A model generated the notes under the pieces. It was not told the DNA's origin. It made no database searches and saw only the letters and a program-made list of their open reading frames with translations. 64,000 nt of DNA from Thiomicrorhabdus lithotrophica. Lineage in GTDB: Bacteria > Pseudomonadota > Gammaproteobacteria > Thiomicrospirales > Thiomicrospiraceae. The stretch covers positions 2,356,001 through 2,420,000 of the forward strand of contig NZ_CP102381.1 in the NCBI RefSeq assembly GCF_029201445.1. The letters run 5' to 3'. Positions 17,671-34,964 of this stretch are shown one piece after another. The translations under genes and the position numbers were made by a program. The first letter of the stretch is position 1. Each line of letters opens with the position of its first letter.

Positions 17671-17806
17671 GCAAACAGCCAATACAACTATTAGATTCAC
17701 ATTAACCGTCTTTAATCATTTTTTAGTTTTAAGTGGTTTTAACATATGGAAAAATCATTGCTTTCTAAGCCAGAATCACTTATTTCTCAAAATAATGAAA
17801 TAACAT

Positions 17807-17835
17807 TTGACACTCGAAGAGCCCATCCATATAAT
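17807..17835 (+). promoter_or_regulatory. Orphan consensus sigma70 promoter (left copy of tRNA-Phe promoter)
   Basis: A perfect TTGACA (17807-17812) and a perfect TATAAT (17830-17835) are separated by 17 bases, followed by a GC-rich discriminator typical of stable-RNA promoters. It is a diverged copy of the tRNA-Phe promoter at 34920-34948. Confidence 0.85.
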
Positions 17836-17851
17836 ACGCCCATTCTATTTT

Positions 17852-17890
17852 GGCCACATAGCTCAGTCGGTAGAGCAGATTGAAAACCCA
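17852..17890 (+). pseudogene. Truncated tRNA-Phe (5' part only), island left end
   Basis: Bases 17852-17877 are identical to the first 26 nt of the intact tRNA-Phe at 34965. They cover the acceptor 5' strand and the D arm. The next bases read GATTGAAAACCC, which keeps the anticodon-loop sequence TTGAAAA but lacks three stem bases, and the 3' half is missing. I read it as the remnant of the original attachment site left when the island integrated. A shared upstream segment of about 50 bases makes the total direct repeat with the right end nearly 80 bases. Confidence 0.85.
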
Positions 17891-17937: not shown

Positions 17938-17962
17938 AAACCCGCTTATATAGCGGGTTTTT
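17938..17962 (+). terminator. Rho-independent terminator downstream of the truncated tRNA
   Basis: AAACCCGC (17938-17945) pairs with GCGGGTTT (17953-17960) around a 7-base loop, with a T-run at the end. A transcript from the orphan promoter would end here, giving an RNA of roughly 120 nt. Confidence 0.8.
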
Positions 17963-18095
17963 GCGTTATTAATATATTAAACTGTGACCGGTTTAAATCA
18001 AATGATGTGCATCATAACTGAAATTCTGATATTTTGTAGTGACATAAAGACAACTTAATTGGAAAGTTTTAATCCAATATAAACTACGTAGATAA

Positions 18096-18476
18096 CTGCT
18101 GGAGAGTGGCGTTTCTAAGATAAATAAGGCTAAGGAGCAAAGTGACGACTTCTGGGATACATTATGCATTGACCAGGGGCATGAGTTAATAGATCGGGTA
18201 GCATCACTACAATCGTTCCTCACTGCACCCAACAATGGCTTCTTAGCGCATGAAATACTCACTCAACTGGTCCAACTTGAACCATACATTCAAGATGGCC
18301 TGCCAGACTACCAAAAGCTTTTAAGCCATATCGAAACGGCGAAGTTTTGTTTACAGCAGTTAGAGCAACTTTCTAATGAAAACAATGAGATTTATAGATT
18401 TACCCATCTAACCCCATTCATTGAATATGCCCAAACCCAAAAAGACTACCCTAAGGATAAAAGCCCCTCTGATTTT
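18096..18476 (+). other. In-frame coding extension upstream of the first recombinase ATG
   Basis: The reading frame of the recombinase gene stays open for 127 codons upstream of its first ATG, back to a TAA at 18093-18095. The translation looks like normal soluble protein (for example DDFWDTLCIDQGHELIDRV and EILTQLVQLEPYIQDG) with amphipathic helices similar in style to the downstream protein. It contains no in-frame ATG, GTG or TTG; the earliest codons are CTG CTG at 18096-18101. Either the gene uses a rare start (CTG or ATA/ATT), or its start was lost or frameshifted. The ATG at 18477 has no Shine-Dalgarno, which argues that it is not the native start. Confidence 0.6.
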
Positions 18477-20744
18477 ATGGAACAGAGTCTTTGGCATGGC
18501 TATTTAGAATCTTACCCAGTCTATACCTGTCTATTCTTTCCCTGTACTCCTAAAAATCAAGCTTTACCAGTTAGCTTTAATTTATCTCTTGAAACTCACC
18601 GTTTTCTAAAAATACAAATTTTTAAGCTTTTAGCTAATCACCAAAATATCCTACATATAAGTAACATAAAAAGCGTAACCAGATATTTGAGAAAATTTTT
18701 ATCATTACAGTCTTACCAACACTTAAACACCTCAGAGTATCTTCAAGTCAAAACAGAGTGCGCTCTTTATGAATTTTGCAAACATCTAAAGACCTCAAAA
18801 GAGAACCTAGAAGATAAAGAAAGACTATCCGATGGAAGTCAATTTGTAGCACAAGAAGCTTCTGAAGATAAACGCTGGATTAATGAGGCTGGAATTCATT
18901 TAAGAAACTTTTTCAAAATATTCTGCATCAAGCCAGGTGTTTGGCGCGAAAAAGGTACCCGAGGAGAGGACAAATCAAAACGAGCGAAATACAATCGAAC
19001 AATGGGTTTAGTTCTATCTTCAAAGGTAAAGCAAGAACACAATCTTGATAATATTGGGCTTGATAACAATACTGTAAACTTAAAAAGAATCAGACCAACC
19101 AAAGCCTCTCTAAGCAATCTCGCTTCATCTATACTCGAAGAAGAAAAGAGCGACGATATTGACGATGAAATTCAAACAGAAGAACTTATTTGGAATCAGT
19201 CAAAACCGTGCGAACTTAACAATCCGATCGCATCTCTGATTAATACCCAAAGACTACTACCCCATATTGCCCTCAATAATCAGTTACTTCGACCGAGAGC
19301 AATCAAAAAAGAGATTCAAAAAGCACTCTTTATCATTACTAGAACAGCAGAAATACTCTCCGATGGAGTTACATTATTTACTATAGAACACGTAAAAGAT
19401 TGCCTACGCTGGTTGATTTTAATTCTAACTGGCCGAGTGATAAATCAAATAGAAACAGAAGCCTTTTTCTTAAATGAGACAAACATCTTTTTAGACGATG
19501 AAAACTCCTTTATTCGAATTGTCTTTCCTCAATATATGCATAGAGAAAACCTAAGCAATAAATACGTTTACATACCTACCGAGATTGAAGAGTTGGAGCT
19601 CATCCTCCCTGAGGAGATCAGGTTAATATTAAAACCGATGATAAGTTTTTTAAAAAAAAGGAAGCCTGATAATAAATCTGAAATCCAAATAAATACCAAA
19701 AACAAAAAATCCGCTTTTAATGACTGGAATACAAGCGAGATTCGACTTCAAACTCAGCGCAGCTATGCTGAAATCACTTCTGATAGCTGGTTGCTATCAG
19801 TAATAAGCTGGCAATCAAGCGGCTTATCAAACACCCAAAAGCACTATGCATCATGCACTGTTAAAACAATGCAGACGATATTTGAAAAACATATCCAAAC
19901 TTTTTTAAATATTGATTGTAAAACCACTAAGTGGTCAAATCAAACCGATGCAAGAATTGGTTCACCATATTATTTAAATGCAAAAACCTATCGACAAATC
20001 ATCAAACAACTTTGGCAAAATGCCAATCCACTTTTCGACCAATTAAACTATAAATCGATCAAGTTGAATGAACTAAAATTCCGTTTTAACTCTCTCGCAT
20101 TTTGGATTGATAGCTACTGTTCATTTGCTGCCGCAACACGCAACATAACCGATCCTCTTATTCAAAAAGACCTGGTCAGCCATGAAGGACTGTATCGAGT
20201 CAACGATAAAAATAAATACGATGGATTCAATACTCGAATCGTATTTGTTCCAGCAACACTTTTAACCAAACTTGAAGCATACAAAAAGGTGCGTCAAAAA
20301 GTATTAATCTATCTTAGAAAAACCCAAAATCTATCTGCAAAAGATGAAGAAATCCTCAGAACAAATAAACTGTTCTTTTTCAAACAAAATACGCAAGGCT
20401 TTTTAAAAATTGTTGAATACACACGCAGTCGGTGTCGTGATGAGATTTATTGGCAAGCCAATACAGATATTGATATAGGAACCGGAAAAAATGACTTATT
20501 GGTCTACGAAAACTTGAGGGCTATAAAAACCAATGTAAACCGTCACTATCTTAGAGGAAGACTTTTAGAATTCGGAATACCTGGTTTTTTTATCGATGCC
20601 TTCATGGGGCATTGGCATGCAGGAACCCAGCCATGGGGTCAAATGAGCATTTTCAATCAATCGCATTATTTAGAACAGTTAAAAAAGTTTATTCCTAAAA
20701 TTCTAAATGAACTTGCTTTCAACGTTCGTGAGACTGGTTTATGA
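18477..20744 (+). CDS. Large tyrosine recombinase-like protein, first of a tandem pair
   Basis: The frame from the first ATG gives 755 aa, and real coding probably begins further upstream (see the preceding extension). The C-terminal 180 residues look like a tyrosine recombinase catalytic domain. Arg555 is in AAATRNITDP, HYLR gives His690 and Arg693, GHWHAG gives His712, and the candidate nucleophile is Tyr731 in SHYLEQL. The N-terminal 500 residues match no domain I recognise and are rich in Lys, Asn and Ile. The stop overlaps the next start (ATGA). The gene sits next to the truncated tRNA, so it likely takes part in moving the island. Multi-recombinase modules such as RIT elements, Tn554 TnpAB or Gamma-Mobile-Trio are possible analogues. 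Confidence 0.7.
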   Translation: MEQSLWHGYLESYPVYTCLFFPCTPKNQALPVSFNLSLETHRFLKIQIFKLLANHQNILHISNIKSVTRYLRKFLSLQSYQHLNTSEYLQVKTECALYEFCKHLKTSKENLEDKERLSDGSQFVAQEASEDKRWINEAGIHLRNFFKIFCIKPGVWREKGTRGEDKSKRAKYNRTMGLVLSSKVKQEHNLDNIGLDNNTVNLKRIRPTKASLSNLASSILEEEKSDDIDDEIQTEELIWNQSKPCELNNPIASLINTQRLLPHIALNNQLLRPRAIKKEIQKALFIITRTAEILSDGVTLFTIEHVKDCLRWLILILTGRVINQIETEAFFLNETNIFLDDENSFIRIVFPQYMHRENLSNKYVYIPTEIEELELILPEEIRLILKPMISFLKKRKPDNKSEIQINTKNKKSAFNDWNTSEIRLQTQRSYAEITSDSWLLSVISWQSSGLSNTQKHYASCTVKTMQTIFEKHIQTFLNIDCKTTKWSNQTDARIGSPYYLNAKTYRQIIKQLWQNANPLFDQLNYKSIKLNELKFRFNSLAFWIDSYCSFAAATRNITDPLIQKDLVSHEGLYRVNDKNKYDGFNTRIVFVPATLLTKLEAYKKVRQKVLIYLRKTQNLSAKDEEILRTNKLFFFKQNTQGFLKIVEYTRSRCRDEIYWQANTDIDIGTGKNDLLVYENLRAIKTNVNRHYLRGRLLEFGIPGFFIDAFMGHWHAGTQPWGQMSIFNQSHYLEQLKKFIPKILNELAFNVRETGL

Positions 20745-23700
20745 GCTTGAGAATAACTAAACTTCAATTGAAAAAAGAGAACGGTTTTTCAGCACAGAAT
20801 TACCGTAACCATCGAAACATCCTCAAGAAAGCCAGTATAGATAGTCGTTCATCAAAACTTACAACTCGTAAGAACAAAATTAAAGCCAGATTTTTAAAAC
20901 CTTACGAAAAAAACTTAAACGCGCTTCAAGTCAGATTAGAGGGCTTAGCCTATCGAGAAAAAATTCATAAAGAAATTATGAATAGAAATCAAATGTTAGA
21001 CTTTTGGTCTGGCGCATGGAATAAAAAGCTTTTAATTCAACCAGCTTCTTTGAGTCACTTATCCCGGTTTATTGAATATCGAATCAAAACAACGCAAGTG
21101 CTTTTACGTAAACCGAATTTTCAATTTGAATACAATGATGACACTCTCATTGCATGGTTATTTTATCAATGGCTAATGCTGTCAACAAATCAAAAACATC
21201 ACCCCATACCTCAGCAATTACCAACATGGTTTAAACACGATTTTTTGCACATCATGGACTTGTCAAAGCACGTAAACGTAAAGCTGAGTGCAAAACTAGA
21301 AATAGTCAATCAGCCCTTAGAAAAATTAGAAAAGGAAGTAAAATCAGAACTCAATTTATTAAAATCACAAATCAGCAAAGCACTGAGTGAAGGCATTCTT
21401 AATGCCTGCTTAGAAGAAGAATCTCAAAAAGTTATTTTTGGAGGCTCACCAAGCAACACTCAAATCCAAGAGCTTTTTACGACCACTAACCTACTGATAG
21501 AATTTGGAAATCACCTAGGTATGTGGGATCTATGTTTTATCAACTCGGTCATCATCCCCTTTCATGAAACCAACCCGTTTGCCGATGAAAATGAGTGGAA
21601 ACGCGCCTTAAGGTTTGAAAAAACCGTGCATGCCATAGAGTCAGTTCATGAAAAACACGTTAATGATATTGACTTTTTGCATGCTCGGGTCATAACAAGC
21701 CTTATGATTGAAAGTTATATCCTAGATGAAAATTTACTGAAGTCAGTACTTCAATCACTCAACTCACCACATAAACTTTTGCGCATTGGTAAACAGTTGG
21801 TCATATGGAGTGCCCCTCAAAACAAACCAAACCGTCTAGTCTTTATTTCTGAATTAACCGAGCTATATTACCGTCAATATTTAGCGGCATGTTTAAAACA
21901 AAAACATAAATTTGAGCTCGAACTTCGCTTTCCAGACTCTAAGTTTTATAGAGCAATTGGTCACTCCAAACATACCGTTAAATTAAGCACCTTTAAAAGC
22001 TGGAAGCACTCTGTAAAAGTCTACTTACAGCTTAAAGGCTATCTCGACGGTATGAGCTTAGCGTATGCCTCTGGTGACATTCAAAGCCATGCGTTATTAC
22101 CCAAGGTGCTTAATCGCTTTTTTAGCCTTGGCGTTGACGCCAGTGAATCGACAATTCATGCAGAAAACCTCTCTAATCATGGTCGATTACCTCGCTCTTT
22201 TCTTTGGACGCAACTTCGATCAATATTGAATGTCAAACACATCAATAAGACTGAAGAATATAACGTTCGACAAGGAATTAAAGGGAGAATACGAAACCTA
22301 ATAGTGACTCCGCAGTTTTCCGAAAATGAAAAATTGATTGCTCGCTATGCCTTAGCTCGAATTGACAAGAGTCATGGCTTTGAGGCGATCAGCCCTTCGA
22401 CTATATTAGGCCATATTGATGCCTTTGGACTCCCTCTCATTTTGAGTGCTGAGAGTTTTTCACTAACAGAAATCTCCCCTACTCAAAGACAAGCCATTTA
22501 CTTTAACGCTATCGAAATGAAATACGTCAACCCAAAACGTTTTTTATATTTTTTGAAGCTGTTTGAAGATTGGTTAATAAAAAACTATGGAAAGCCCAAG
22601 CAAACAAAATCCATTGAACGCATTCCTGATTATGAAGAGTTATTTTCCGATATAAAACGCCCTGAGTATTCAGTCGATGCGAACATCATCAACTTTGAAG
22701 AGTACGAAAAAACAAAGAGCCTGCTTGTTGAGGCGTATATCGCTTCAAATGGCGAAAAACTTGAATTGTTGCAAGCCTCCATTTTATTAATTTTAGGATT
22801 TAAACTCGATTTAAGGCGCAGCGAAGCAATCTTTTTGCACTCAAAAGACTATATCTTTGATCCTGAGCAAGCCAACTTATTTGTTAAGCCTCATGATAAA
22901 AGAGCCCTCAAAACGAATAATGCCAACCGAATGTATCACCTTGAAGAGCACTTAACATCTCAAGAAATAGGGCTATTTGAAGAGTACTTAGGTGAGGTGG
23001 GACGACGCTTGCAAGTTGAAGAAGCGACTTATCTATTTCCTGATAAAAAGACCACTCTTTGTCCACCCGATAGAATATTGAATCCACTGTTACAGGTATT
23101 GAGGCAGGTAACTGGTGATTCAGACTTTAAATTCCATAACCTTAGGCATTCCAAAGCGAGTTGGGATATGTTGTCTATATTCAACGCTCAGTTTAATTTA
23201 AGGCTGGAAAAGACCATATTTAACCACATGCCCAAAACAGCTCAATTTCTAACCGATTCTAAAGTACGCTGGTCTAATGCAGTTCATACCGAGCAGAGCT
23301 TTCATAAGGCTCCTTTTTATCTTCACCGTCAAATGGGACATGGTTCTCTAGTTACGACACTTAAAAACTATATACATACCATGGACTTTACGATAGCAGG
23401 ACTTCAACAGCTTCAGGCTGAACGCGTACTATCAATTGAATGGGCAAGCCGTCTAGGTATCGTTAAAAAAAGCACGCTCCATAACAAGCTCGTCAACAAT
23501 GAGCACACCATCCAAGAATATCTACTCGAGAAAGTTCTCCCTTGGTCAACGGTTAATCAAAGTAAAGACTCTCAATCAAACCAAGAGCCAGAATCAACTG
23601 AACCTTTGGACTCTTCAGAGTCGTTACCTACTCTAGGCTCGGCAATGCGTTCAGGAACATTATTACCACTTCAAGAATTACAGAAATGGAAAGCCTTTTG

Positions 23701-24346
23701 TCTTTTTGAAATATTTCATCTGATTTTAGACAACAAAGATGAAGAGCTCCGCCTAGCTCTCCAACGACTCAATCTTGAAGCCGAAAACTTACCTAAAATT
23801 CTAGAGTACTTTAGAAAGAATAAGCAGACTCGACTTAAAATGCCCATCCACGATGCCTCTTTTCATCGACTGATTGATGAATTTTTTAAATTACCAAGTG
23901 CATGGCAAGAAGCCTTGCTCAATGATAGTTTTAATTCCAGTGAACATTTTGAATCCGAAAGGACTCTCATTACTCATACTATGAGTCGAATAAGCGTTAA
24001 ACTTCAGGACACTAAATTCGATTTATCCCCGGTAAAGGAAATAGATATTATTTGTAGCAATACAAGTGAGGCACGTCCAGTTATTGAACTGATAAGAATC
24101 TTAGACTGGAAAATCAAATGTCGTTTTATGAACCCGCAAAATGGGTCTTTTTCATGGTCTGATTGGAAAAAAGATCTTTTACTTGAAGAATCTGAAATTA
24201 ATGAAGATTGCGTTGTAAAAGCCACAGTCAAAAACACTCATGGACGATTAACTATTCGTTTGAAGCGTGATGGCAAAAGCTCAGCAAAATACTTTGAACA
24301 GTATCTGCTTTTGGCATTACTGGCTATAAAAATAGACATTACTTAA
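20741..24346 (+). CDS. Giant tyrosine recombinase-like protein, second of the tandem pair
   Basis: The 1201 aa protein carries a recognisable tyrosine recombinase domain in its middle: Arg692 in LDLRRSEAIF, a Lys in the following beta hairpin (KPHDKRALK), His799 and Arg802 in FHNLRHSKASW, His867 in HRQMGHGSL and candidate nucleophile Tyr877 in LKNYIHTMDF. About 690 residues precede the domain and 320 follow, both unusual, since integrases are normally 300-450 aa. The tail contains a Ser/Glu/Pro-rich linker (about 950-970) and a basic C-terminal module. The start overlaps the previous stop, so the two proteins are probably made in fixed ratio and may act as a complex. I know of no named family with confidence. 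Confidence 0.75.
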   Translation: MSLRITKLQLKKENGFSAQNYRNHRNILKKASIDSRSSKLTTRKNKIKARFLKPYEKNLNALQVRLEGLAYREKIHKEIMNRNQMLDFWSGAWNKKLLIQPASLSHLSRFIEYRIKTTQVLLRKPNFQFEYNDDTLIAWLFYQWLMLSTNQKHHPIPQQLPTWFKHDFLHIMDLSKHVNVKLSAKLEIVNQPLEKLEKEVKSELNLLKSQISKALSEGILNACLEEESQKVIFGGSPSNTQIQELFTTTNLLIEFGNHLGMWDLCFINSVIIPFHETNPFADENEWKRALRFEKTVHAIESVHEKHVNDIDFLHARVITSLMIESYILDENLLKSVLQSLNSPHKLLRIGKQLVIWSAPQNKPNRLVFISELTELYYRQYLAACLKQKHKFELELRFPDSKFYRAIGHSKHTVKLSTFKSWKHSVKVYLQLKGYLDGMSLAYASGDIQSHALLPKVLNRFFSLGVDASESTIHAENLSNHGRLPRSFLWTQLRSILNVKHINKTEEYNVRQGIKGRIRNLIVTPQFSENEKLIARYALARIDKSHGFEAISPSTILGHIDAFGLPLILSAESFSLTEISPTQRQAIYFNAIEMKYVNPKRFLYFLKLFEDWLIKNYGKPKQTKSIERIPDYEELFSDIKRPEYSVDANIINFEEYEKTKSLLVEAYIASNGEKLELLQASILLILGFKLDLRRSEAIFLHSKDYIFDPEQANLFVKPHDKRALKTNNANRMYHLEEHLTSQEIGLFEEYLGEVGRRLQVEEATYLFPDKKTTLCPPDRILNPLLQVLRQVTGDSDFKFHNLRHSKASWDMLSIFNAQFNLRLEKTIFNHMPKTAQFLTDSKVRWSNAVHTEQSFHKAPFYLHRQMGHGSLVTTLKNYIHTMDFTIAGLQQLQAERVLSIEWASRLGIVKKSTLHNKLVNNEHTIQEYLLEKVLPWSTVNQSKDSQSNQEPESTEPLDSSESLPTLGSAMRSGTLLPLQELQKWKAFCLFEIFHLILDNKDEELRLALQRLNLEAENLPKILEYFRKNKQTRLKMPIHDASFHRLIDEFFKLPSAWQEALLNDSFNSSEHFESERTLITHTMSRISVKLQDTKFDLSPVKEIDIICSNTSEARPVIELIRILDWKIKCRFMNPQNGSFSWSDWKKDLLLEESEINEDCVVKATVKNTHGRLTIRLKRDGKSSAKYFEQYLLLALLAIKIDIT

Positions 24347-24581
24347 CTTTTTAAATTCAACGTTTGAATACGATTATTTATTGAAAGGATTGCGGATGCA
24401 CATTCAGACTTGCTCTTTTCATTTTCAGTCACCTTTAATATGAAATACATCTTAAAACCTCTATTTAGGTGGCCAAAATTACTGTACCACTACACTTAGA
24501 AATTGCAGTTATTACTTGAATCTGCGAGATAAAAAAATAATCGCATGCTATAATTTAATGTCGTTTGCTACCCTTAATGAA

Positions 24582-25175
24582 ATGAATAAAACATTTAAGA
24601 AAATCCTCAATAATGCTTCAGAGTTATTTGCCGAAAAAGGCTATGAAGGCACAATAATGGATGAACTGTGCATACGTAGCGGTGTAAACAAAGCGAGTAT
24701 CTATTATCACTTTAAAGATAAGTCTAACCTCTATGAAGTTGTGCTAACCAAGCTATTTTCAGAAGTTGCCGACCAGATTATCGTGGCGGTTTCCAGTCAA
24801 ACGGCTCCTTTAGAAAAGCTCAAATCATTTATTGAGACATTTGCCCAAGAGACTTATCAAAATAAACAGATGCCAGCCACTTTAATGCGTGAAATCGCTT
24901 CCGGCGGAAAAAACATGCCTATTCCTGCTCGCAAACAAATGCAACGAATTTTGCAAACTCTTTCATCAATTTTAAAAGAAGGTGCAGAACAACAAGTATT
25001 TAAGCAGGTCGATCCCTTAACAACCCACTTTATAATTATAGGAAGCCTTTGCTTCTTCTCAACCAGCGAGCCTATGCGCCAAGCCATAGAGTCTGAACAT
25101 CCACTAGATCCTGACTTAAATAGTACTATCGCTGAAATCTATTCCCTAATTAGTAGTGCAATCATCTTAAATTAA
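24582..25175 (+). CDS. TetR-family transcriptional regulator
   Basis: The protein of about 197 aa begins MNKTFKKILNNASELFAEKGYEGTIMDELCIRSGVNKASIYYHFKDKSNLYEVV, a textbook TetR N-terminal helix-turn-helix. A helical ligand-binding domain follows (FIETFAQETYQNKQ, IIIGSLCFFSTSEPMRQ). In-frame upstream starts exist at 24516 (TTG) and 24558 (ATG). None has a good ribosome site, so I chose the start that gives a normal-length N-terminus. It lies upstream of the RND operon in the same direction, and palindromes between them are probable operators. It likely represses the exporter operon until a hydrophobic ligand binds. Confidence 0.9.
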   Translation: MNKTFKKILNNASELFAEKGYEGTIMDELCIRSGVNKASIYYHFKDKSNLYEVVLTKLFSEVADQIIVAVSSQTAPLEKLKSFIETFAQETYQNKQMPATLMREIASGGKNMPIPARKQMQRILQTLSSILKEGAEQQVFKQVDPLTTHFIIIGSLCFFSTSEPMRQAIESEHPLDPDLNSTIAEIYSLISSAIILN

Positions 25176-25187
25176 CCATTTCTTTTG

Positions 25188-25272
25188 ACTAATTAGTTAC
25201 TTTTTTCCTACAAGCTTATTGGAATCCAGTTCGTTTTGTGTAAAATGTAACTAATTAGTTAAACTATTTAGT
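25188..25272 (+). promoter_or_regulatory. Operator palindromes between tetR and the RND operon
   Basis: ACTAATTAGT (25188-25197) and the perfect 14-base palindrome TAACTAATTAGTTA (25248-25261) share the core CTAATTAG. A third, degenerate copy AACTATTTAGTT (25261-25272) abuts the exporter start. The spacing and repetition are typical for a TetR operator set. Confidence 0.65.
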
Positions 25273-25280
25273 TGAATTGT

Positions 25281-27785
25281 ATGCAAATTAATATAAAAAA
25301 CAGACTGTTAGAGATAGAAAAAATTTTAGGAAATCTTGCGATATTTATTGCACGACATCCAAAATGGATAATTTTTTCAGTGTTTCTCTTGGTATTCCTG
25401 TCCGCAAGCCAATTACCCAAAATTACCGTTGATACTTCCACCGAAGGTTTTCTTCATGCTACCGACCCGGCAAGAGTGGCTTATGACGAGTTTAGAAATC
25501 AATTTGGGCGTGATGAAAAAATTGTCGTTGCTATATCAACCAACGATATTTTCAAGCTTGAAAAGCTAAATCAACTTAAAGCACTGCATCAACGCTTGGC
25601 AGCAGAAGTTCCACACTTATTTGAAATTACATCCTTAATTAATGCTCGCTATACCCAGGGTAATGGTGATAGCCTGTTAGTAGATGATCTCATGACTCAG
25701 TGGCCAGAATCTCAGTTAGATGCCGAGAAACTCAAACAAAAAGCGCTGAACAATCCTTTGTACCGGGATTTATTAGTCGATTCTCAAGGTGAATTTACTG
25801 TTCTAGTACTGGAATCTAATACTTATACAAACCAAGACATTGATAGTAAACGTGTGTCTGATAATAAAATCAATTCTGGAATTCCCGAAATACCAATAGA
25901 AGAAACGATACTGGAAGATGCATTTTCAGAATTTGACAGTTTGGCGCAACCGAATGAAGCTACAAAACAAAAAGAATTCATTTCTGATAAAGAAAACAGT
26001 GAGATGGTAGCCGCTGTCAGTCAAATCGTTACTGATTTCAACTCAGATGACTTTAAGATTTATGTGGCAGGTTCTCCGTCGGTAACAGCCTTCTTAAAAA
26101 GCTCAATTATGGGAGACATGCAAAAATTTATTGTGATGATTCTAGCAGCAATCTCAATCATTCTTGCTCTTTTATTTAAGCGTTTATCTGGTGTAATTTT
26201 ACCTTTAATTTCAGTTTTTTTAGCTGTCGTTGTAACCCTGGGCATGATGGCTTGGAACGGCACACCGATTAAGGTAATGACGCAAGTAATGCCTTCATTT
26301 TTACTTGCGGTCGGCATTGGTGCATCTATTCATGTTTTAGCTATTTTTTATAAAAACTACGACACCCACAAAGATAAAGAGCAAGCACTGATTTATACTT
26401 TCGAACACTCGGGTTTAGCCATTGTGATGACGTCACTTACAACCGCTGCGGGCATGCTCTCTTTTGCCCCGTCAAATGTTGCCCCTGTTGCGGATTTAGG
26501 TATTTTTTCTGCTCTTGGCGTCATGATTGCACTGCTGTTCACTTTAGTATTGCTCCCGGCTTTACTAATCATCTTACCGATTAAGTCAAAATCGATTAAT
26601 AATGATTCAGAACACCATGACTTTCTTGATAAGTTCTTAAAAACCATTGCTAGGTTTTCACAGACAAATGCGAAACCGATTGTTATTTTTTCTCTTATAT
26701 TTATGGCTTTAAGCTTAGGTGCAGCCAGTCAAATTGGGTACTCACACAATCCTTTAAAATGGTTCCCTCCGGAACATGAAACGCGTATCGCAACCGAGAC
26801 CATTGATAAAGAGATGAACGGTTCTATTTCGCTTGAGTTAGTTATCGATACTCATCAGGAGAACGGCTTATACAATCTTGAACTGCTAAAGTCTCTGGAC
26901 AAGGTCACGCTTGAATTACAGCAAATTAAAGGTGATAAATTCTTTGTTGGTAAAGCGTTAAGTCTGGTCGATGTTCTTAAAGAAATACATCAAGCTTTAA
27001 ATAAAAATCAGCCTGAATTTTACCGTCTGACTTCGAATGAAAAATTAATTCCGCAAGAAATATTGTTGTTTGAAAATTCTGGCTCTGATGATTTACAGGA
27101 TTTTGTTGATAGTCAATTTTCTAAAGCTCGTATTACCGTAAAAGTCCCCTGGATTGATGCTTTTGAATATGACGAGCTGTTAAATCAAGTTGCAGAAATT
27201 TTAAAACGCAATCTACCCAGCTCTGTTTCAATAACCACGACGGGAATGATCCCTCTGCTTGCAGAAACATCCTCCGCGGCTGTGTCCAGTTCAGGCACCA
27301 GTTACCTTATTGCTTTTGCCGTCATTGGCATCATGCTGATTCTACTATTGCATAGCGTAAAACTCGGATTGCTGGCGATGATTCCAAACTTATTACCAGT
27401 GCTGTTTGTCCTTGCCGTTATGGTTGTATTCCAATTTCCTCTTGACCTTTTTACGATGTTAATTGGGGCTATCGTCATAGGAATCGCTGTCGATGACATT
27501 GTTCACTTCATGCACAACTTTCGACGTTTTCATCAACAAGGTCACAGTACCGAAAAATCGGTTGAAATGACATTGATTAGTAGTGGACGAGCTATGATGA
27601 TTACAACTTTAGTCCTATTTGTAGGTTTTATGCTTTACCTGTTCGCATCAATGACCAATCTATTCTTATTTGGGTTGCTCACCGCGTTGGCATTTGTCAT
27701 CGCCCTAATTGCGGTATTTTTACTTGCACCAGCGCTGATGGCACTAACTTACCCTGAAAAAGCGAATCAAAGGGAAACGCTATGA
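25281..27785 (+). CDS. RND superfamily (MMPL/HAE3-type) exporter
   Basis: This large inner-membrane protein (about 834 aa from the ATG at 25281) has twelve predicted helices in the two-fold MMPL pattern. Helix 1 is near residue 35, then a periplasmic domain (TEGFLHATDPARVAYDEF). Helices 2-6 include FLLAVGIGASIHVLAIFYKNYDTHKDKEQAL. A second periplasmic domain and helices 8-12 follow, with AIVIGIAVDDIVHFMHNFRRFHQQGHSTEKSVEMTLISSGRAM. Such proteins export lipids, sterol-like or other hydrophobic compounds. Its neighbours (LolA-like, DUF1302-like) are the usual companions of this subfamily. It overlaps the next gene by four bases. Confidence 0.9.
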   Translation: MQINIKNRLLEIEKILGNLAIFIARHPKWIIFSVFLLVFLSASQLPKITVDTSTEGFLHATDPARVAYDEFRNQFGRDEKIVVAISTNDIFKLEKLNQLKALHQRLAAEVPHLFEITSLINARYTQGNGDSLLVDDLMTQWPESQLDAEKLKQKALNNPLYRDLLVDSQGEFTVLVLESNTYTNQDIDSKRVSDNKINSGIPEIPIEETILEDAFSEFDSLAQPNEATKQKEFISDKENSEMVAAVSQIVTDFNSDDFKIYVAGSPSVTAFLKSSIMGDMQKFIVMILAAISIILALLFKRLSGVILPLISVFLAVVVTLGMMAWNGTPIKVMTQVMPSFLLAVGIGASIHVLAIFYKNYDTHKDKEQALIYTFEHSGLAIVMTSLTTAAGMLSFAPSNVAPVADLGIFSALGVMIALLFTLVLLPALLIILPIKSKSINNDSEHHDFLDKFLKTIARFSQTNAKPIVIFSLIFMALSLGAASQIGYSHNPLKWFPPEHETRIATETIDKEMNGSISLELVIDTHQENGLYNLELLKSLDKVTLELQQIKGDKFFVGKALSLVDVLKEIHQALNKNQPEFYRLTSNEKLIPQEILLFENSGSDDLQDFVDSQFSKARITVKVPWIDAFEYDELLNQVAEILKRNLPSSVSITTTGMIPLLAETSSAAVSSSGTSYLIAFAVIGIMLILLLHSVKLGLLAMIPNLLPVLFVLAVMVVFQFPLDLFTMLIGAIVIGIAVDDIVHFMHNFRRFHQQGHSTEKSVEMTLISSGRAMMITTLVLFVGFMLYLFASMTNLFLFGLLTALAFVIALIAVFLLAPALMALTYPEKANQRETL

Positions 27786-28204
27786 AAAAGTTATTCATGA
27801 TGTTTTTGTTTCTCACCGTTATCGCAACATCCACTCAAGCAGAAGATACAAGACAAGTAATTTGGTTAACTGCCGAGCAAAAAAATCTGTTGATGCAGGA
27901 GATGCGTCACTTTTTGCAGGCCTCACAAACCATTTTAGGCAATTCTTTAAATGAAGATTTAGAAAGCATTGAAAAAACGGCTCGTTCGGTTGGTATTAAG
28001 GCGATGAAAGCTACCCCGCAAAGCCTTAGCAAACTTTTGCCACAGGCTTTTTTGGAAATTGGCCCAAAGGTGCATCTCGGCTTCGAAGAAATAGCCAATG
28101 AAGCAAGTGGAATAGGTGATATAGAGGTAATTTTAAAGCGTTTGACAGGATTGCAAAGCAATTGCATAGAGTGTCATGCTCAATATCAAATTAAAGTGAA
28201 ATAG
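27782..28204 (+). CDS. Periplasmic cytochrome c-prime/c556-like protein
   Basis: The 140 aa protein has a signal peptide (MKKLFMMFLFLTVIATSTQAED) and an all-helical body. A single heme c attachment motif CIECH lies close to the C-terminus (about residues 129-133), the layout of class II cytochromes c (c-prime and c556). The preceding region LTGLQSNCIECHAQYQ matches the usual pattern. Such proteins bind NO or shuttle electrons; the role here is unknown. It overlaps the exporter stop by four bases (ATGA), so it is firmly part of this operon. That is not a companion I expect for MMPL exporters. Confidence 0.8.
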   Translation: MKKLFMMFLFLTVIATSTQAEDTRQVIWLTAEQKNLLMQEMRHFLQASQTILGNSLNEDLESIEKTARSVGIKAMKATPQSLSKLLPQAFLEIGPKVHLGFEEIANEASGIGDIEVILKRLTGLQSNCIECHAQYQIKVK

Positions 28205-28215
28205 GAGATTCAAGC

Positions 28216-29007
28216 ATGAAAAAATTTATCTTTTTAACGGGTTTGTTTTTGTCTGCGTTGATGCCTCAATCTGTGTTTGCATTAACTGGTGAAGAAATTG
28301 CAATAAAAGTAGATCACAGAGATGACGGCGATAAAGGTACTGCAAAAATCGAAATGATTCTGATTGATGCTCAAGGGCAAAAGCGTATTCGAGAAATGCA
28401 AAAATTCGAAATGGATGTTGAAAAAGATACTCACAGCGCCATCTTCTTTACAGCACCTGCCGATGTCAAGGACAGTGCATTTTTAACCTATGACTACGCC
28501 TCTTCAGATAAAGACGATGATCAATGGCTCTACCTTCCAGAGCTGCATAAAACAAAACGAATCGTAAGTAGCGATAAGAGCAATGCCTTCATGGGATCAG
28601 ATTTTACTTATGCGGACATGACCAAACGAGTTGTGGAGGATTATCACTATCGTATCGTCAAAGAATCCAATGTGAACGAGCAACCTGTTTGGGTAATGGA
28701 AGCTGTACCAAAAACCGAAAAAACACGAGATGAGACGGGGTACGCCAAGTCTTATATGTTTGTTCGTCAGGACAACTTTGTCGTGGTTCGCGCCATGCAT
28801 ATGCAGACGGATGGCAAGATAAAATATATGGACGTTCGTAAGCTTGAAAAAATTGAAGGGATTTGGGTCGCGACTGAAATCGGTATGACGACCAAGAAAA
28901 ATAAAGTCACCCTGCATCAAACTTTAATGCGTTTTTCCAATATACATTTTAATCAGGATTTTGATGAAAGCTTATTTACAGTGCATCGAATTGAACGAGG
29001 CTTATGA
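28216..29007 (+). CDS. LolA-like outer-membrane lipoprotein-sorting family protein
   Basis: The 263 aa protein has a signal peptide (MKKFIFLTGLFLSALMPQSVFA). Its body matches the LolA-like family that accompanies RND/MMPL exporters: MILIDAQGQKRIREMQKFEMD, DDQWLYLPELHKTKRIVSSDKSNAFMGSDFTYADMTKR and VRKLEKIEGIWVATEIGMTTKKNKVTLH. It probably acts in the periplasm as a carrier of a hydrophobic cargo between exporter and outer membrane. It follows the cytochrome gene by 11 bases with a good AGGAG site, and its last bases overlap the next gene. Confidence 0.85.
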   Translation: MKKFIFLTGLFLSALMPQSVFALTGEEIAIKVDHRDDGDKGTAKIEMILIDAQGQKRIREMQKFEMDVEKDTHSAIFFTAPADVKDSAFLTYDYASSDKDDDQWLYLPELHKTKRIVSSDKSNAFMGSDFTYADMTKRVVEDYHYRIVKESNVNEQPVWVMEAVPKTEKTRDETGYAKSYMFVRQDNFVVVRAMHMQTDGKIKYMDVRKLEKIEGIWVATEIGMTTKKNKVTLHQTLMRFSNIHFNQDFDESLFTVHRIERGL

Positions 29008-30365
29008 TGAAAATTCCGGATTTTTTAAAATTTAAATTTTCTCTTTTATCGTTAACTTTTATTTTCTCTCTACCTGCTCTATCCGCAGAAGTTCCTGAAT
29101 TGGAGGCCGCTTTAGAAGGGTTTGAACAAACTGGTTTTGAAAATATTCAGCCTATTACACCCGTTTCTAAACCGGCATCGAAATGGCAAATCGAAGGCAA
29201 GCTAACCACGCAAGCAGCTTATGCTTATTCAGCATCTGAACGCGAGTGGAAACAAGCCAGTTTACGTGGCGATATTGGTATCGACTATCGAGATTCTGAT
29301 TGGAGATTTACGTTTAACAGTCATGCTGTGTATGACAGCATTTACGCTCTCAATGGAAAAAACAACTACTCGAAACAAGAGTTAAACAGTTACGAATCTG
29401 AGTTAGAAATTGATGAAGCGTATATTCAAAGAAAGTTAAATGAAAATATAGATGTGTCATTTGGGCGTCAGATAAAAGTCTGGGGTAAATCTGACAATAT
29501 AAGGATAACGGATGTCATAAATCCTTTAGATAATCGAATCCCAGGATTGACGGATATCGAATATCTTCGTCTGCCAGTACTCATGACTCAAGCAAACTAT
29601 TTCTGGCAAAATTGGACGTTTTCTTTTATAGCTTTACACGAACAACGCCCAAGTAAAATAGCTCCGACAAACAGTGATTTTTTACCAACAATACAAATGA
29701 TTGGGTATCCCATTACTCTACCTAAATTAAGTGATGAATCTAACTGGAAAACGACCCCAGCATTTTCTGCTGAAGGTCGTTTTTCTGGGTGGGATATTTC
29801 TTTTTATGCGGCAGAGGTTCAACAAAGTCAGTGGACTCTCAATCCAAACCAAACCGAGCGAGCATTTGAACAAACCCTAATGCAAGGTATTGCTGGAAAT
29901 TATGTATTGTCCGATTGGCTGATAAAGGCTGAAGTTGCTCATTTTAATAATATTCACTACTCTAACTCGCCAGAAACCTTTGAACGGTGGGATAGCCTAT
30001 TAGGCGTTGAATATCTGAGCATACCTAACTGGAGTTTTTCAGCTGAAATGGCTAACCGGCACATCTCAGACTACTCAAAATCTTTATCTTCGTTTCCCGA
30101 TTTAATCGCTGAAGATACATGGCAAACAGCACTGCGAGGAAGTTATGACTTTCACCATGAAAGAGGCAAGATTAGCTACCTATTATCAATGAATGGGCTT
30201 AATTGGGAAGATGGTGGTTTTCAGCGCTTTTGGGTTGACTATGATCTCAATGACAACAGCAATATTACCATTGGAGTGATTGATTATATTGGTGGTGATC
30301 ACGCTTATTGGCAGGCGATTCGTAACAACGATCGATTATTTGCTGAATATCAGTTATATTTTTAA
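29004..30365 (+). CDS. DUF1302-like outer-membrane beta-barrel protein
   Basis: The 453 aa protein has a signal peptide (FSLLSLTFIFSLPALSAEV) and alternating aromatic strands typical of an outer-membrane barrel. It ends in a terminal aromatic residue (AEYQLYF), the signal for barrel insertion. Motifs include DIGIDYRDSDWRFTFNSHAVYD, FGRQIKVWGKSDNIRITDVINPLDNR and WTFSFIALHEQRPSKIAP, which resemble the DUF1302 family. Together with the exporter and LolA-like protein it could form an envelope-spanning lipid or hydrophobic compound route. It overlaps the preceding gene by four bases. Confidence 0.82.
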   Translation: MMKIPDFLKFKFSLLSLTFIFSLPALSAEVPELEAALEGFEQTGFENIQPITPVSKPASKWQIEGKLTTQAAYAYSASEREWKQASLRGDIGIDYRDSDWRFTFNSHAVYDSIYALNGKNNYSKQELNSYESELEIDEAYIQRKLNENIDVSFGRQIKVWGKSDNIRITDVINPLDNRIPGLTDIEYLRLPVLMTQANYFWQNWTFSFIALHEQRPSKIAPTNSDFLPTIQMIGYPITLPKLSDESNWKTTPAFSAEGRFSGWDISFYAAEVQQSQWTLNPNQTERAFEQTLMQGIAGNYVLSDWLIKAEVAHFNNIHYSNSPETFERWDSLLGVEYLSIPNWSFSAEMANRHISDYSKSLSSFPDLIAEDTWQTALRGSYDFHHERGKISYLLSMNGLNWEDGGFQRFWVDYDLNDNSNITIGVIDYIGGDHAYWQAIRNNDRLFAEYQLYF

Positions 30366-31554: not shown

Positions 31555-32502
31555 TTAATTCAAGCGATTGAGATAATGCTTGTTAGAACCAATATTGAGT
31601 TCTGTAAAGTGATAATAATCTGGCTTATCATTAAACGCCATGCTTCTTAAAGACGCTGAGGTACTTAACCGGTCGGACATTTTTATAGCATTACCTGATA
31701 CAAAACGACAGACACCCTGTTTTTCTGTCCAGGTTAATAGGTATTGCAACGTCTCAGCCCCTTCTTTCCAATATTCGTGCAAGGTATTGAGAGGCTCAGC
31801 AAGCAGCATGAGCGTAAATTGCTCATGATCGATCAATCGTCCTGTTGAGGTGTGCTGAGTGGGTCCAATAGTTTTAACCTTTCCCACGTCATGAAATAGT
31901 GCCGCAATAACGGCAACTTCTTTTTCCTTCCTTGAAACATCAATAAGTGACTCTACCGTTTGTTGGGTCATCAATGCACACTCTAACGAGTGCATCAGTA
32001 ACCCTCCTGGAAAACTATGGTGATGACGTTTGCTGGCAGGTATGCTCACAAAGGCCGTCATCAGTGGTTTATCCATCAACACTTCTCTAGCAAACATCCT
32101 TAACGGAATGACCTTTAAACTCTCTACCAACTCAAAAAGCTGATACAACGAGTCAAAGTCATAACAGGCCTGGTAGATTGGAAAGAGTTGTTCAAGCGTT
32201 AAGGTGCTTTTGAATAGTCGCCAGTTGAGTACAGAGCCATCACTTCGTTGTTCTAACCAAAGATAAAGTGATTCACTATTTTGCAAATTCAGGCTTTCAT
32301 ATCGCTGATTGATTTCAGCGTAATCTTCACTATCGACCTGTATGTAGTGTGTGATGTAGTTTTGGTCAACAAGACTCACCTGACACCAACCGTAATCGGT
32401 ACAACCTAACTCTTGACCAAAAATACCAGCATAGCCAATAAGCTGTTTACCATTGCCGACTTGCAGACGTTTTTGTTGGTTGTAAAGCATAATTGGGTTC
32501 AT
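31555..32502 (-). CDS. TraI_2/HD-domain protein
   Basis: The 315 aa protein has an HD-type metal-binding motif (AALFHDVGKVKTIGP, about residues 201-214) preceded by SKRHHHSFPGGLLMHSLECALMTQQTVESLI. This arrangement is typical of the TraI_2 (DUF1528) module of conjugative relaxase-like proteins in integrative elements. It is shorter than full relaxases and lacks their C-terminal region, so it may be a stand-alone nuclease or phosphohydrolase. It starts in overlap (ATGA) with the preceding small gene, which in turn overlaps the integrase, forming a coupled integrase-led operon. Confidence 0.75.
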   Translation of the reverse strand: MNPIMLYNQQKRLQVGNGKQLIGYAGIFGQELGCTDYGWCQVSLVDQNYITHYIQVDSEDYAEINQRYESLNLQNSESLYLWLEQRSDGSVLNWRLFKSTLTLEQLFPIYQACYDFDSLYQLFELVESLKVIPLRMFAREVLMDKPLMTAFVSIPASKRHHHSFPGGLLMHSLECALMTQQTVESLIDVSRKEKEVAVIAALFHDVGKVKTIGPTQHTSTGRLIDHEQFTLMLLAEPLNTLHEYWKEGAETLQYLLTWTEKQGVCRFVSGNAIKMSDRLSTSASLRSMAFNDKPDYYHFTELNIGSNKHYLNRLN

Positions 32503-32843
32503 TGGTAGACCTCCATCATAATCTGTTCTTTAAGCTGACTGACAAGGTGTTCAAGAACATCGTCTTGGCTTACTGGCTTTTCTTCTAGAGTAGCTAACAC
32601 CCAATACTTAATAGCATCTCTGTTATTCGCGCATTGACCTTGTCCTAATACGAAGGTTAGGTAATCACCCTCTTGAATGTTAAACAGGTACATAAGATTA
32701 TTTACAAGACGGTTAACCACTCTTGGGTCTTCAATCGCAATCAGTGCCTCTATATCTGAAGGCATCGATGGATGTTGCCTTTTTAAAAAAGGCGGGATAT
32801 GTTGATGTGATGTTGCTTGTGGTGTAGTTTGATGTAAATTCAT
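32499..32843 (-). CDS. Hypothetical island protein between integrase and TraI_2 genes
   Basis: The start is the ATG at 32843, which shares a base with the integrase stop (TAATG) and has a GGGAGG site upstream. It gives about 114 aa. The N-terminus is polar (HQTTPQATSHQHIPPFLKRQ), followed by a helical domain (DIEALIAIEDPRVVNRLVNNLMYLFN) and a central NNRDAIKYWVLATLE segment. I recognise no family. Coupling to both neighbours suggests it works with the integrase or the TraI_2 protein, perhaps as a DNA-binding accessory. Confidence 0.6.
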   Translation of the reverse strand: MNLHQTTPQATSHQHIPPFLKRQHPSMPSDIEALIAIEDPRVVNRLVNNLMYLFNIQEGDYLTFVLGQGQCANNRDAIKYWVLATLEEKPVSQDDVLEHLVSQLKEQIMMEVYQ

Positions 32844-34147
32844 TAGTAACGTCCTCCCATTGAAGAAGTTTGACTGGGTGTTAAGAACTGATCCCAAAAA
32901 GCCACTTCTTCGGCTTCACTTTGTTGCGCTTGATTAACCGATACGCTTAATTCTTCATCAGCTTGTTTTTCAGCCTCGTTTACTGGCTCATGAAAACCAT
33001 CAATATTGGAAGCCAATAATCGCTCCATAGCCGAACCGTCTTTACGAGTGAGGTTGGGCACATAACGTGCATAGACGCTGAAGAGCATGGTGGTGGTACT
33101 GTGTCCCATCTGTTTGGCAATCCAGTTGGGGTTTTCTCCTGCCGCTAACCAGAGCGTGGCAGCTGTGTGGCGAGTTTGATAAGGTTTACGGTACTTAATT
33201 TTGAGATAAGCCAGTAGTGGTGTCCAAACACGTCTTAAAAAGTTAGGTGTATGAACCGGTGAGCCGTTATTGGCGTGAAATACCATCTCACACGATACAT
33301 CACGGTTTTGATAACGTTCCTGAAGCGTGTTATAAACCAAAGTCGACATCTCTATCTCACGTTGAGAGCCATCGTTTTTGGTGTATTCCCACCGCCCCAT
33401 TGAGAAGGTTTCTCGCACGAGAATCTCACGTCGTTCAAAATCAACATTCTCCCATTTAAGACCGTCAATCTCCCCAGTGCGCATCCCTGTAAAGAATCTC
33501 ACAAGCAAATAATCACGCCAATCAGGTCGAACGTTCGCCAATATCAAGTTCACTTCTTGAATTGAAAGTGGCTGAATATGAACTTTCTCTTCTTTAAGGG
33601 GCTTGATATTTAAATGCGGTGGCGTAAACTTGTATCGGTCAGCTGCTTCATTCATAATCATATTCAGACACTTGATAAACTTGTTTATCGTCTTTGGCTT
33701 TAATTTACCGTCCGATTGTTTGGCGACGTTAGAACGGTACTTTAAAATGTGAGCTTTGGTGATTTGGCTGACTTCCATTTCTCCAAAATGCGGAATAAGT
33801 CGCTTATCGATATAACGCTGATAAGTTTCGGCTGTTGAAGTTCGCCATGTTGGTTCCATCTCTGAATACCACTCGATTGCAAACGCTTTAAACAAAGGTG
33901 TTTTTGTGTAACCAGGCTTTTGCTTTGCTTGAATCTCGGCCATCTTATTTACCATTGAACTGTTTGGGAAATATTTACCGTACTCAAACGTTCCCAAAGT
34001 AATCTCAGCTTCAATACGTGCCAATATAGTTTCCAGCCTTTTGCGGTTAGGTTTTGTGTCAGGTAACGTAGTTTGCTCTCGGCAACGCTCACCAAGAAAT
34101 CTAAAATCAAAAAACAACGTATCCTTTCTAGTTCTTACACTTCCCAT
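32843..34147 (-). CDS. Tyrosine recombinase (phage-type integrase)
   Basis: This integrase of about 434 aa has an N-terminal arm-binding domain (DTLFFDFRFLGERCREQTTLPDTKPNRKRLE) of the type seen in DUF3596 integrases. A SAM-like core-binding domain (about 100-190) and a catalytic domain follow. The catalytic Arg lies in FFTGMRTGEIDGLKW. YQTRHTAATLW supplies the Arg of the second box (with His two residues on, in an otherwise family-like RHT pattern), QMGHSTTTM supplies the His, and VYARYVP supplies the Tyr. The second ATG (34147) has the better-placed AGGAG. It is read away from the tRNA-Phe end, behind an Xis-like gene, and is expected to integrate and excise the island. Confidence 0.92.
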   Translation of the reverse strand: MGSVRTRKDTLFFDFRFLGERCREQTTLPDTKPNRKRLETILARIEAEITLGTFEYGKYFPNSSMVNKMAEIQAKQKPGYTKTPLFKAFAIEWYSEMEPTWRTSTAETYQRYIDKRLIPHFGEMEVSQITKAHILKYRSNVAKQSDGKLKPKTINKFIKCLNMIMNEAADRYKFTPPHLNIKPLKEEKVHIQPLSIQEVNLILANVRPDWRDYLLVRFFTGMRTGEIDGLKWENVDFERREILVRETFSMGRWEYTKNDGSQREIEMSTLVYNTLQERYQNRDVSCEMVFHANNGSPVHTPNFLRRVWTPLLAYLKIKYRKPYQTRHTAATLWLAAGENPNWIAKQMGHSTTTMLFSVYARYVPNLTRKDGSAMERLLASNIDGFHEPVNEAEKQADEELSVSVNQAQQSEAEEVAFWDQFLTPSQTSSMGGRY

Positions 34148-34167
34148 ATACATTCTCCTCTTTAAAC

Positions 34168-34413
34168 TTAATGGGTAACGCTATTGCAATAACCACCATT
34201 AGCCATTGGTATTGCAAAATCAGATGAAGACGAAGCTTTATACATGTCCTCTTCAATACTCTCCCAAATAAACAAAATCTTGCGCTGACCAAATGGTCTA
34301 ATGTAATGACGTCCCTCAATTAAAACGCTATCTTTTAATTCATTTCGAATTGTTCTTGGGTTGTACTTAATTCGTTCAGATAATTCTTCAGTAGTTAAAT
34401 AAGTCATACTCAT
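34168..34413 (-). CDS. Excisionase-like small DNA-binding protein
   Basis: The 81 aa protein begins MSMTYLTTEELSERIKYNPRTIRNELKDSVLIEGRHYIRPFGQRKILFIWESIEEDM. This is a winged-helix/MerR-like N-terminal fold typical of excisionases and small recombination directionality factors. A GAGG site lies nine bases upstream of the ATG. It is immediately upstream of the integrase on the same strand, the common xis-int order. It likely bends DNA at the attachment site to favour excision. Confidence 0.75.
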   Translation of the reverse strand: MSMTYLTTEELSERIKYNPRTIRNELKDSVLIEGRHYIRPFGQRKILFIWESIEEDMYKASSSSDFAIPMANGGYCNSVTH

Positions 34414-34450: not shown

Positions 34451-34536
34451 AAAGATAAATATATGTATCTTTTAGGTTTCATTATATGGACCTAACAAAC
34501 CATGTCAAGCATTAAATGATATAAATATGTATCTTT
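34451..34536. promoter_or_regulatory. Paired operator sites between xis-like and XRE genes
   Basis: A near-perfect 22-base dyad with arms AAAGATA and TATCTTT spans 34451-34472. A second version ending in ATATGTATCTTT lies at about 34515-34536. Both flank the divergent promoters and are likely binding sites of the XRE regulator that faces right. Confidence 0.6.
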
Positions 34537-34553
34537 TTTTTATCGAGGTAAGC

Positions 34554-34808
34554 ATGATTAGATTCAAGCTGAAAGAGTTAATCTCAAAAAAAGAGTTTTA
34601 TGATGGCAAGAGAATTACCCTTAAAAAGATTGCTGAGGTTACAGGTATAAACAGAATGACATTAACAAAAATCAACACAAAAGTTGGTTACAGCACTTCA
34701 ACTGACACTCTCAATAAACTATGCGATTTCTTTGATTGTGAGATTTCAGAATTGGTTGAATATGTTTCAGAGGATCAAATGCAGAAAAAGACCGATAAAG
34801 AAGAGTAA
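34554..34808 (+). CDS. XRE-family (Cro/CI-like) transcriptional regulator
   Basis: The ATG at 34554 follows GAGG by five bases, so the longer frame from 34527 is unlikely. The product of about 84 aa carries a Cro/C1-type helix-turn-helix (LKKIAEVTGINRMTLTKINTKVGYSTSTDTLNKLCDFFDCEISELVEYV), as in small element-borne regulators. It is divergent from the xis-int unit, with two matching dyads between them, and probably represses excision functions. It ends about 50 bases before the GGGCAC repeats at the right end of the island. Confidence 0.88.
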   Translation: MIRFKLKELISKKEFYDGKRITLKKIAEVTGINRMTLTKINTKVGYSTSTDTLNKLCDFFDCEISELVEYVSEDQMQKKTDKEE

Positions 34809-34886: not shown

Positions 34887-34919
34887 AGCGAATAAAATCG
34901 CATTATTTCAAAATAACAT

Positions 34920-34948: not shown

Positions 34949-34964
34949 ACGCCCATTCTATTTT

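Follow-up and report, generated by a model that had tools for sequence, protein, structure and literature searches.

What role is played by two very large, overlapping open reading frames (ORFs) that lie at one end of a genomic island in Thiomicrorhabdus lithotrophica? The ORFs, designated here A and B, are encoded on the forward strand of a 64,000-nucleotide stretch of contig NZ_CP102381.1 (positions 2,356,001 to 2,420,000; hereafter, the window). An earlier reading of the sequence (i.e., the original prediction) had taken them for two coupled tyrosine recombinases, each with a plausible R-HxxR-H-Y set, that may form an obligate two-recombinase system at the end of the island opposite a conventional integrase. 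With moderate confidence, we propose that A and B together supply the recombinases of a mobility module (P-A-B, where P is a small ParB-like gene) located at one end of mobile islands.

The two large coupled ORFs are real, with an ATGA overlap joining the end of ORF A to the start of ORF B (1,201 amino acids [aa]; coordinates are given in Table 1). The ATG-initiated form of ORF A (18477 to 20744) encodes 755 aa, and its frame stays open back to position 18096, which corresponds to 882 aa (A residues are numbered on this longer form throughout). Upstream of 18477, this frame contains no ATG, GTG, or TTG. The N-terminal extension is coding, since the alignment with A of a relative in the genus (genome G767; 34% identity over 875 columns) starts at residue 18, with the first ATG far downstream at residue 128, and since Pro45, within the extension, is kept in 22 of 23 sequences. 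These observations back the length of about 880 residues that had been suggested for A. The start of A is probably the CTG at 18096, because its distance of 206 bp from a tRNA-Phe remnant matches the corresponding spacing in three relatives of the genus (192 to 216 bp).

A and B are one unit, i.e., constant neighbors that usually overlap and are sometimes fused. Searches with A or B yielded 65 loci (seven duplicates removed; three near-identical Marinomonas copies counted separately). The two genes are adjacent and on one strand in all 56 loci that were scored, and they overlap in 52; the A or B frame is broken in some of these pairs (e.g., L088, L100, L103, and L105). The nine unscored loci comprise three fusions, L066 (in which A falls below the line), four loci at contig ends, and L094. 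A-B fusion ORFs are present in L020 and L059, and the C-terminal part of A is joined to B in L019, L066, and L107. Both profiles match two ORFs of the genus (1,800 and 1,807 aa) and an ORF of an Acinetobacter plasmid (1,683 aa). Whether whole or partial, the fusions follow the A-to-B order. This constant adjacency and the fusions uphold the predicted pairing; the notion of two equivalent catalytic partners does not stand, as detailed below.

B is a genuine tyrosine recombinase, having both the R-K-HxxR-H-Y set and the catalytic fold. Residues R692, K724, H799, R802, H867, and Y877 are invariant in all 24 aligned B proteins (window B among them); in a second alignment (n = 30), conservation is complete at the first R and at least 90% at the other catalytic positions. 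The Pfam model PF00589 (Phage_integrase) matches window B below the cutoff (E = 0.0014) and exceeds the cutoff in both of the two B relatives scanned, and the B profile matches an archaeal Xer chain (E = 2e-6). In an AlphaFold2 model of B (mean predicted local distance difference test score [pLDDT], 63), residues 525 to 895 fit Xer recombinases (XerA/XerH; VIA-align Z score, ~15). The secondary structure of residues 280 to 470 resembles that of A domain 1 (judged by secondary structure only), and B possibly consists of tandem recombinase folds.

The catalytic set that had been assigned to both proteins is retained among the homologs of B and is incomplete among those of A. Residues R682, K705, R714, R816, and H839 are invariant in a set of 48 A proteins, and the His of HxxR is replaced by Asn (N813 in the window) in 44 of them. 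No conserved Tyr was found among these 48 proteins in the nucleophile region after H839. Column 858 is Tyr in 24 of the 48 (including the window, where it was likely the residue chosen in the original prediction), and column 850 is Tyr in 23 and Met in the window. Y584, in domain 1, is Tyr in 47 of the 48 proteins. S851 is kept in 46; the idea that it stands in for the nucleophile is without structural support. An arginine in an "LR" motif was dropped as a candidate for the second catalytic arginine of A; the spacing of R816 from N813 is that of HxxR. The 48-protein set includes the window and one near-identical pair (L053 and L079); it omits duplicates (L074, L083, L109, and others), fusions, L065 (masked bases), L068, and the majority of the copies that are truncated or broken, with the partial copies L077, L087, and L017 retained. 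Loci L069 to L113 were retrieved by a pattern ending in GHW, so the conservation of G838, H839, and W840 is biased in those loci. Judged from these alignments, A does not qualify as another conventional catalytic recombinase, because its nucleophile is not conserved.

Nevertheless, structural modeling assigns A domain 2 to the tyrosine recombinase catalytic fold. In the model of A (mean pLDDT, 64), residues 622 to 874 fit the archaeal Xer structure 4a8e (VIA-align Z score, 13.2; root mean square deviation, 2.7; 168 aligned residues), and the top 43 of 50 VIA-align rows for this domain are all integrases/recombinases or DNA topoisomerases. The domain 2 profile scores 53% against the integrase set, and XerA_Arch is matched below the cutoff in 3 of 32 A proteins. 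For residues 397 to 627, the VIA-align match to DNA topoisomerases (Z score, 7.1) could by itself be due to chance; the predicted secondary structure agrees with a recombinase/topoisomerase-like fold. The domain 1 profile scores 10% against the catalytic block of B, 6% against its helical core-binding block, and 4.5% against its N-terminal block (reversed controls, at most 1%), and hhalign of whole A versus whole B is weak (1 to 3%). On the basis of these models, A probably carries two recombinase-like folds.

The window contains a tRNA-targeting integrative island, with an integrase gene beside a tRNA gene and a distal direct repeat. The repeat (80 nucleotides; 17798 to 17877 and 34911 to 34990; 94% identical) includes the promoter and 5' half of tRNA-Phe and brackets ~17 kb, with the integrase cassette at the intact tRNA gene and A/B at the remnant, as expected from the predicted location of the pair opposite the integrase. 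Among 32 genomes of the genus, a tRNA-Phe remnant is present in four, each of which has A/B 192 to 216 bp inside the remnant (Fisher's exact test for the association, P = 4e-4); two more genomes carry A/B elsewhere. In the draft genome G754, a second partial tRNA-Phe copy on another contig was treated as an assembly break. By comparison of these genomes, the end of the island away from the integrase is marked by the module in the genus of the window. No convincing direct repeats were found at the ends of the islands of relatives outside this genus.

Beyond the genus, a search with B found matches in 7 of 369 genomes of the class, and A profiles matched 21 of the 398 phylum genomes that were sampled (the genome of the window is included in both counts); three of these 21 matches are weak (G389, G568, and G696; 17 to 22 bits). 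The subfamily of the island integrase is present in 19 of the 398 phylum genomes; A occurs in 15 of these 19 versus 6 of the 379 others (Fisher's exact test, P = 3.4e-19). In all 15 genomes with both, the integrase and A are on one contig, ~3 to 73 kb apart. Three of the four integrase genomes without A match B, and G533 has no B match. The integrase survey gave 32 genomes at E ≤ 1e-30; the 19 used here are those at E ≤ 1e-98, a line that was drawn post hoc at a gap. That the A and integrase surveys drew on one set of 398 genomes was deduced from their equal counts and genome labels. The survey of co-occurrence and island ends suggested in the original prediction linked A/B both to one integrase subfamily and, in the genus, to each of the four tRNA-Phe remnants. 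Between the window and G767, the integrases are 93% identical, whereas A and B are 34% and 40% identical, respectively; this difference suggests that the module diverges faster than the integrase or is exchanged independently of it. Two unusual arrangements were also encountered: tandem integrase genes (34% and 48% identical to that of the window) near a fused A-B in L207 (13568 to 17593), and two outward-facing module copies (L056 and L057) ~37 kb apart, with an integrase between them, in genome G478.

A conserved third gene, for which the original prediction had proposed a search, was found in many loci and is missing from the window. Of the 56 scored loci, 38 contain a match to the profile of this small gene (P), usually directly before A. 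All nine matches of the P profile in the PDB are to ParB, Spo0J, SbnI, or sulfiredoxin (best E = 0.0026). Pfam ParB_N and NCBIfam Noc each match 2 of 17 P proteins below the cutoff (best E = 0.0085 and 9e-4, respectively); for ParB_N, unrelated single matches are equally strong.

The module is also present on plasmids. A of L069 gave distant matches in 31 plasmid records, and B of L073 matched 24; no match to window B was found among plasmids, nor any relative of it among viral contigs, and no match to A of L069 was found among phages. A Vibrio cyclitrophicus plasmid carries P (47 bits), A, and B, and two Acinetobacter plasmids carry a small gene (137 or 223 aa) that the P profile does not match, followed by A and B or by a fused A-B. 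Comparison of five Acinetobacter plasmids with distant relatives of the module places a sharp left boundary at the same point, ~153 bp ahead of the small gene and a fused A-B; the sequences to the left of it are unrelated. For three Marinomonas species, identity rises from 82% before ~7.6 kb of their loci to 99.5 to 99.6% from ~8.0 kb onward; the jump falls just before a P-like ORF (21 bits), and the high identity runs to the end of the stretch. The window integrase has no match in the three plasmid stretches tested, and no other integrases are annotated in the plasmid stretches, for which the gene tables are incomplete. On this evidence, the module seems to move without a window-type integrase. 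We rejected a 10.2-kb Acinetobacter unit bounded by two fixed ends, since one plasmid (L212) matches another (L202) past the supposed right end. On the L212 plasmid, a 31-bp stretch of the left end (2805 to 2835) has a second copy (97% identity) ~2.2 kb upstream, which may be an earlier insertion or an attachment site.

In the mechanism that we envisage, A and B would act as one heteromeric recombinase, in which B would cut and rejoin DNA, and A would fill the other half-sites or set the order of strand exchange. The ParB-like P, where present, would guide this complex to the end of the element. In the lineage of the window, the module is coupled to the conventional integrase-excisionase-helix-turn-helix (HTH) cassette at the far end of the tRNA-Phe island. 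A more elaborate version, which we consider distinctly unlikely, is that A and B hold four tyrosine recombinase folds, two per chain, and form a pre-assembled, unequal synaptic tetramer, with a standard site in B and a possible composite of Tyr584 and the Arg/Lys/Arg/His of domain 2 in A; all four folds would share one chain when A and B are fused.

Our confidence in P-A-B as a mobility module is lowered because the right end of the Acinetobacter elements is unsettled and a P match is missing, and several results weigh against this proposal. P is absent in the window and in its three related tRNA-Phe islands, and the P profile did not match the small gene of L202, the sole one scanned of the five Acinetobacter elements; the trio in L202 therefore rests on position. 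L202 and L213 diverge at 15985/15184, after 10.2 kb, and L202 and L212 are alike beyond this point; no terminal repeats of the Acinetobacter elements were found. No clean empty site was obtained for the window island, whose left flank (MscS) does not adjoin tRNA-Phe in relatives; its integrase cassette alone already accounts for its excision. L094 is an A fragment without B beside it. The models of A and B are of modest confidence (mean pLDDT, 64 and 63), and a plain Foldseek search with the A model gave no significant match (best E = 1.2). Activity of the copy in the window is doubtful, since P is missing and the start codon is CTG; this copy may be specialized or decaying.

Alternatively, P-A-B could be a maintenance module, which would resolve multimers and help to segregate the excised island or plasmid, with the integrase doing all of the integration. 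The resemblance of P to ParB/Spo0J/Noc, the presence of the module on plasmids in which the window integrase is unmatched (three stretches), and the seemingly complete integrase cassette of the window all agree with such a role. We nonetheless regard it as rather unlikely, since the sharp left boundary and the unrelated flanks in the five Acinetobacter plasmids better fit a mobile unit, and two of these five plasmids have separate partition genes. The independent change of the module relative to the integrase in G767, the related modules on plasmids without a window-type integrase, and the absence of P from the window copy would also be expected if A/B were cargo, i.e., a separate element that inserted into an ordinary integrase island and is now merely carried along. 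However, the constant spacing of 192 to 216 bp from attL in four islands and the tight association with a single subfamily of integrases suggest that A/B are a functional part of the island backbone, which makes the passenger scenario unlikely.

With respect to the division of labor within the pair, it is improbable that A itself is catalytic, by means of a shifted Tyr (850 or 858) or Y584 of domain 1. Although R, K, R, and H are kept in all 48 A proteins and Y584 in all but one, Tyr is found at 850 and 858 in only 23 and 24 proteins, 850 is Met in the window, and Asn takes the place of the HxxR His in 44. Finally, BREX genes lie close downstream of the module on two Acinetobacter plasmids, and a Qat gene lies under one megablast match to the L202 stretch, which could point to a device for competition with, or defense against, other elements. 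We find this highly improbable, since these genes look like separate cargo and PADLOC gave no match for A and B (window proteins only). The mobility module remains the interpretation that we favor.

Table 1. Features of the window island and of ORFs A and B (positions are those of the window)
Feature	Position	Strand	Basis or remark
attL-like remnant: truncated tRNA-Phe (promoter, 5' half)	17798..17890	+	80-nucleotide repeat; comparable remnants in 4 of 32 genomes of the genus, counting this one
Terminator-like hairpin and T-run, between attL and A	17940..17963	+	Sequence reading
ORF A, recombinase-like, no conserved nucleophile Tyr	18096..20744	+	~882 aa; start probably CTG; earliest ATG at 18477
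A domain 1 (residues 397-612), probable recombinase/topoisomerase-like	19284..19931	+	Holds Y584; 6z03 (399-627), 3igc (397-581), Z score 7.1
A domain 2 (residues 615-874), predicted recombinase catalytic fold	19938..20717	+	R682, K705, N813xxR816, H839, S851; no conserved Tyr
ORF B, large tyrosine recombinase	20741..24346	+	1,201 aa; R692, K724, H799xxR802, H867, Y877
B core-binding and catalytic domains (residues 526-896)	22316..23428	+	VIA-align Z score ~15 to XerA/XerH
Cargo: TetR regulator, transporter-like protein, subsequent genes	24516..30365	+	Pfam TetR_N; remainder by reading
TraI_2/HD-domain protein, relaxase-like	31555..32502	-	PF07514, E = 7e-8, 32.2 bits versus cutoff of 23.9
132-aa protein, interval between integrase and TraI_2	32499..32897	-	Counterparts in L209 (92% identical) and L210 (60% identical) occupy the same position
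Conventional integrase (Arm-DNA-bind_2 and Phage_integrase)	32843..34153	-	Pfam; subfamily co-occurs with A/B
Putative excisionase-like protein (81 aa), integrase cassette	34168..34413	-	56 to 74% identical ORFs by the integrase elsewhere
Putative small HTH-like regulator, integrase cassette	34527..34808	+	Similar small ORFs by the integrase in other loci
attR: repeat copy and intact tRNA-Phe (34965-35040)	34911..35040	+	Repeat comparison

Other parts of the island provide additional context. The hairpin upstream of A is placed as if insulating the module from the tRNA promoter; a hairpin occurs at the equivalent place in L205 and L206, and none was seen by eye in L204. The TraI_2/HD protein, which we take to be of the MOBH type, adjoins the same integrase in several loci, and the islands that encode it may be mobilizable by conjugation. 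In L062 (7091 to 14400), genes for an HTH protein, P, A, and B are contiguous and codirectional, with an excisionase-like gene and an integrase gene divergent from them; this order is that expected of a circularized window-type island.

The libraries that we scanned do not name the pair, in line with the original suggestion of an undescribed mobile system: neither NCBIfam nor PADLOC matched B or the 755-aa form of A from the window, and Pfam yielded nothing of note for window A. A-like sequences are nevertheless present in 21 of 398 phylum genomes. We found no description of the module in the literature; this search did not cover the Gamma-Mobile-Trio paper or bioRxiv and is no proof of absence. 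The module marks one end of mobile islands across many bacteria, occurs on some plasmids as well, and apparently is undescribed; it could serve as a marker for locating island ends. The kinship in principle with RIT, Tn554, and Gamma-Mobile-Trio elements that had been proposed holds as an analogy; the features of strand-biased circularizing integrative elements (SEs) and of GmtY that were examined were not detected.

The gene content of the Gamma-Mobile-Trio is reportedly a recombinase-containing trio. This trio marks islands rich in defense and offense genes (PMC12715929), and P-A-B likewise is a recombinase-containing trio that serves as an island marker. However, the GmtY model NF040693 (441 positions) matches neither A nor B at E ≤ 1; its 27- and 22-bit matches in the genome of the window are located away from A/B. 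By name, no NCBIfam match to GmtX or GmtZ was found for A, B, or P (whether the library holds those models was unchecked). RIT elements have three overlapping recombinase genes, each with a possible catalytic motif (PMC3414803). Recombinase genes also overlap in our module; unlike RIT, it has two such genes, one of which lacks a conserved nucleophile, rather than three catalytic recombinases. Tn554 and its actinobacterial relatives encode an abnormally long recombinase, one of the usual size, and often TnpC, and both recombinases are described as having a potential catalytic motif (PMC3414803). The adjacent recombinase pair with a third helper in many loci resembles this arrangement; by description, the module differs in that A and B are both long, A has no conserved Tyr, and P is ParB-like.

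The closest analogues are GInt elements and SEs. GInt elements (ginABCD) have three recombinase genes, one of them degenerate, together with GinD, and all four genes are essential (PMC5385486). In both GInt and P-A-B, several recombinases and a small protein with putative DNA-binding function occupy one end, ahead of the cargo; by description, our module comprises P and two very large recombinases instead of three recombinases and GinD, and its two recombinase genes are adjacent in 56 of 56 loci. SEs (IntA, Tfp, IntB, and Srap) have an operon at the left end of the element, with suspected translational coupling, in which Tfp, a recombinase-fold protein that has no catalytic motif, accompanies IntB, a large and active recombinase (PMC10214605). 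A motif-less partner beside a large recombinase is likewise seen here. Unlike SEs, the operon has no IntA gene, and the A, B, and P profiles match none of Tfp, IntB, and Srap (hmmsearch and hhalign; single-sequence templates could miss distant kinship); with hhalign, the B profile scores 87% against one of two IntA proteins and 7% against the other. This test used the two SE-like gene sets of pSEA1, one identified by its blaGMA-1 neighbor and the other by gene order. We judge P-A-B to be a new family of multi-recombinase mobility module, with GInt and Tn554 set apart by description only. It would represent a sequence-distinct case of the pattern found in SEs and GInt, i.e., an active recombinase with a recombinase-fold partner that has no catalytic tyrosine, and if such an active/dead pairing arose repeatedly, the function of the dead partner would become open to direct testing.

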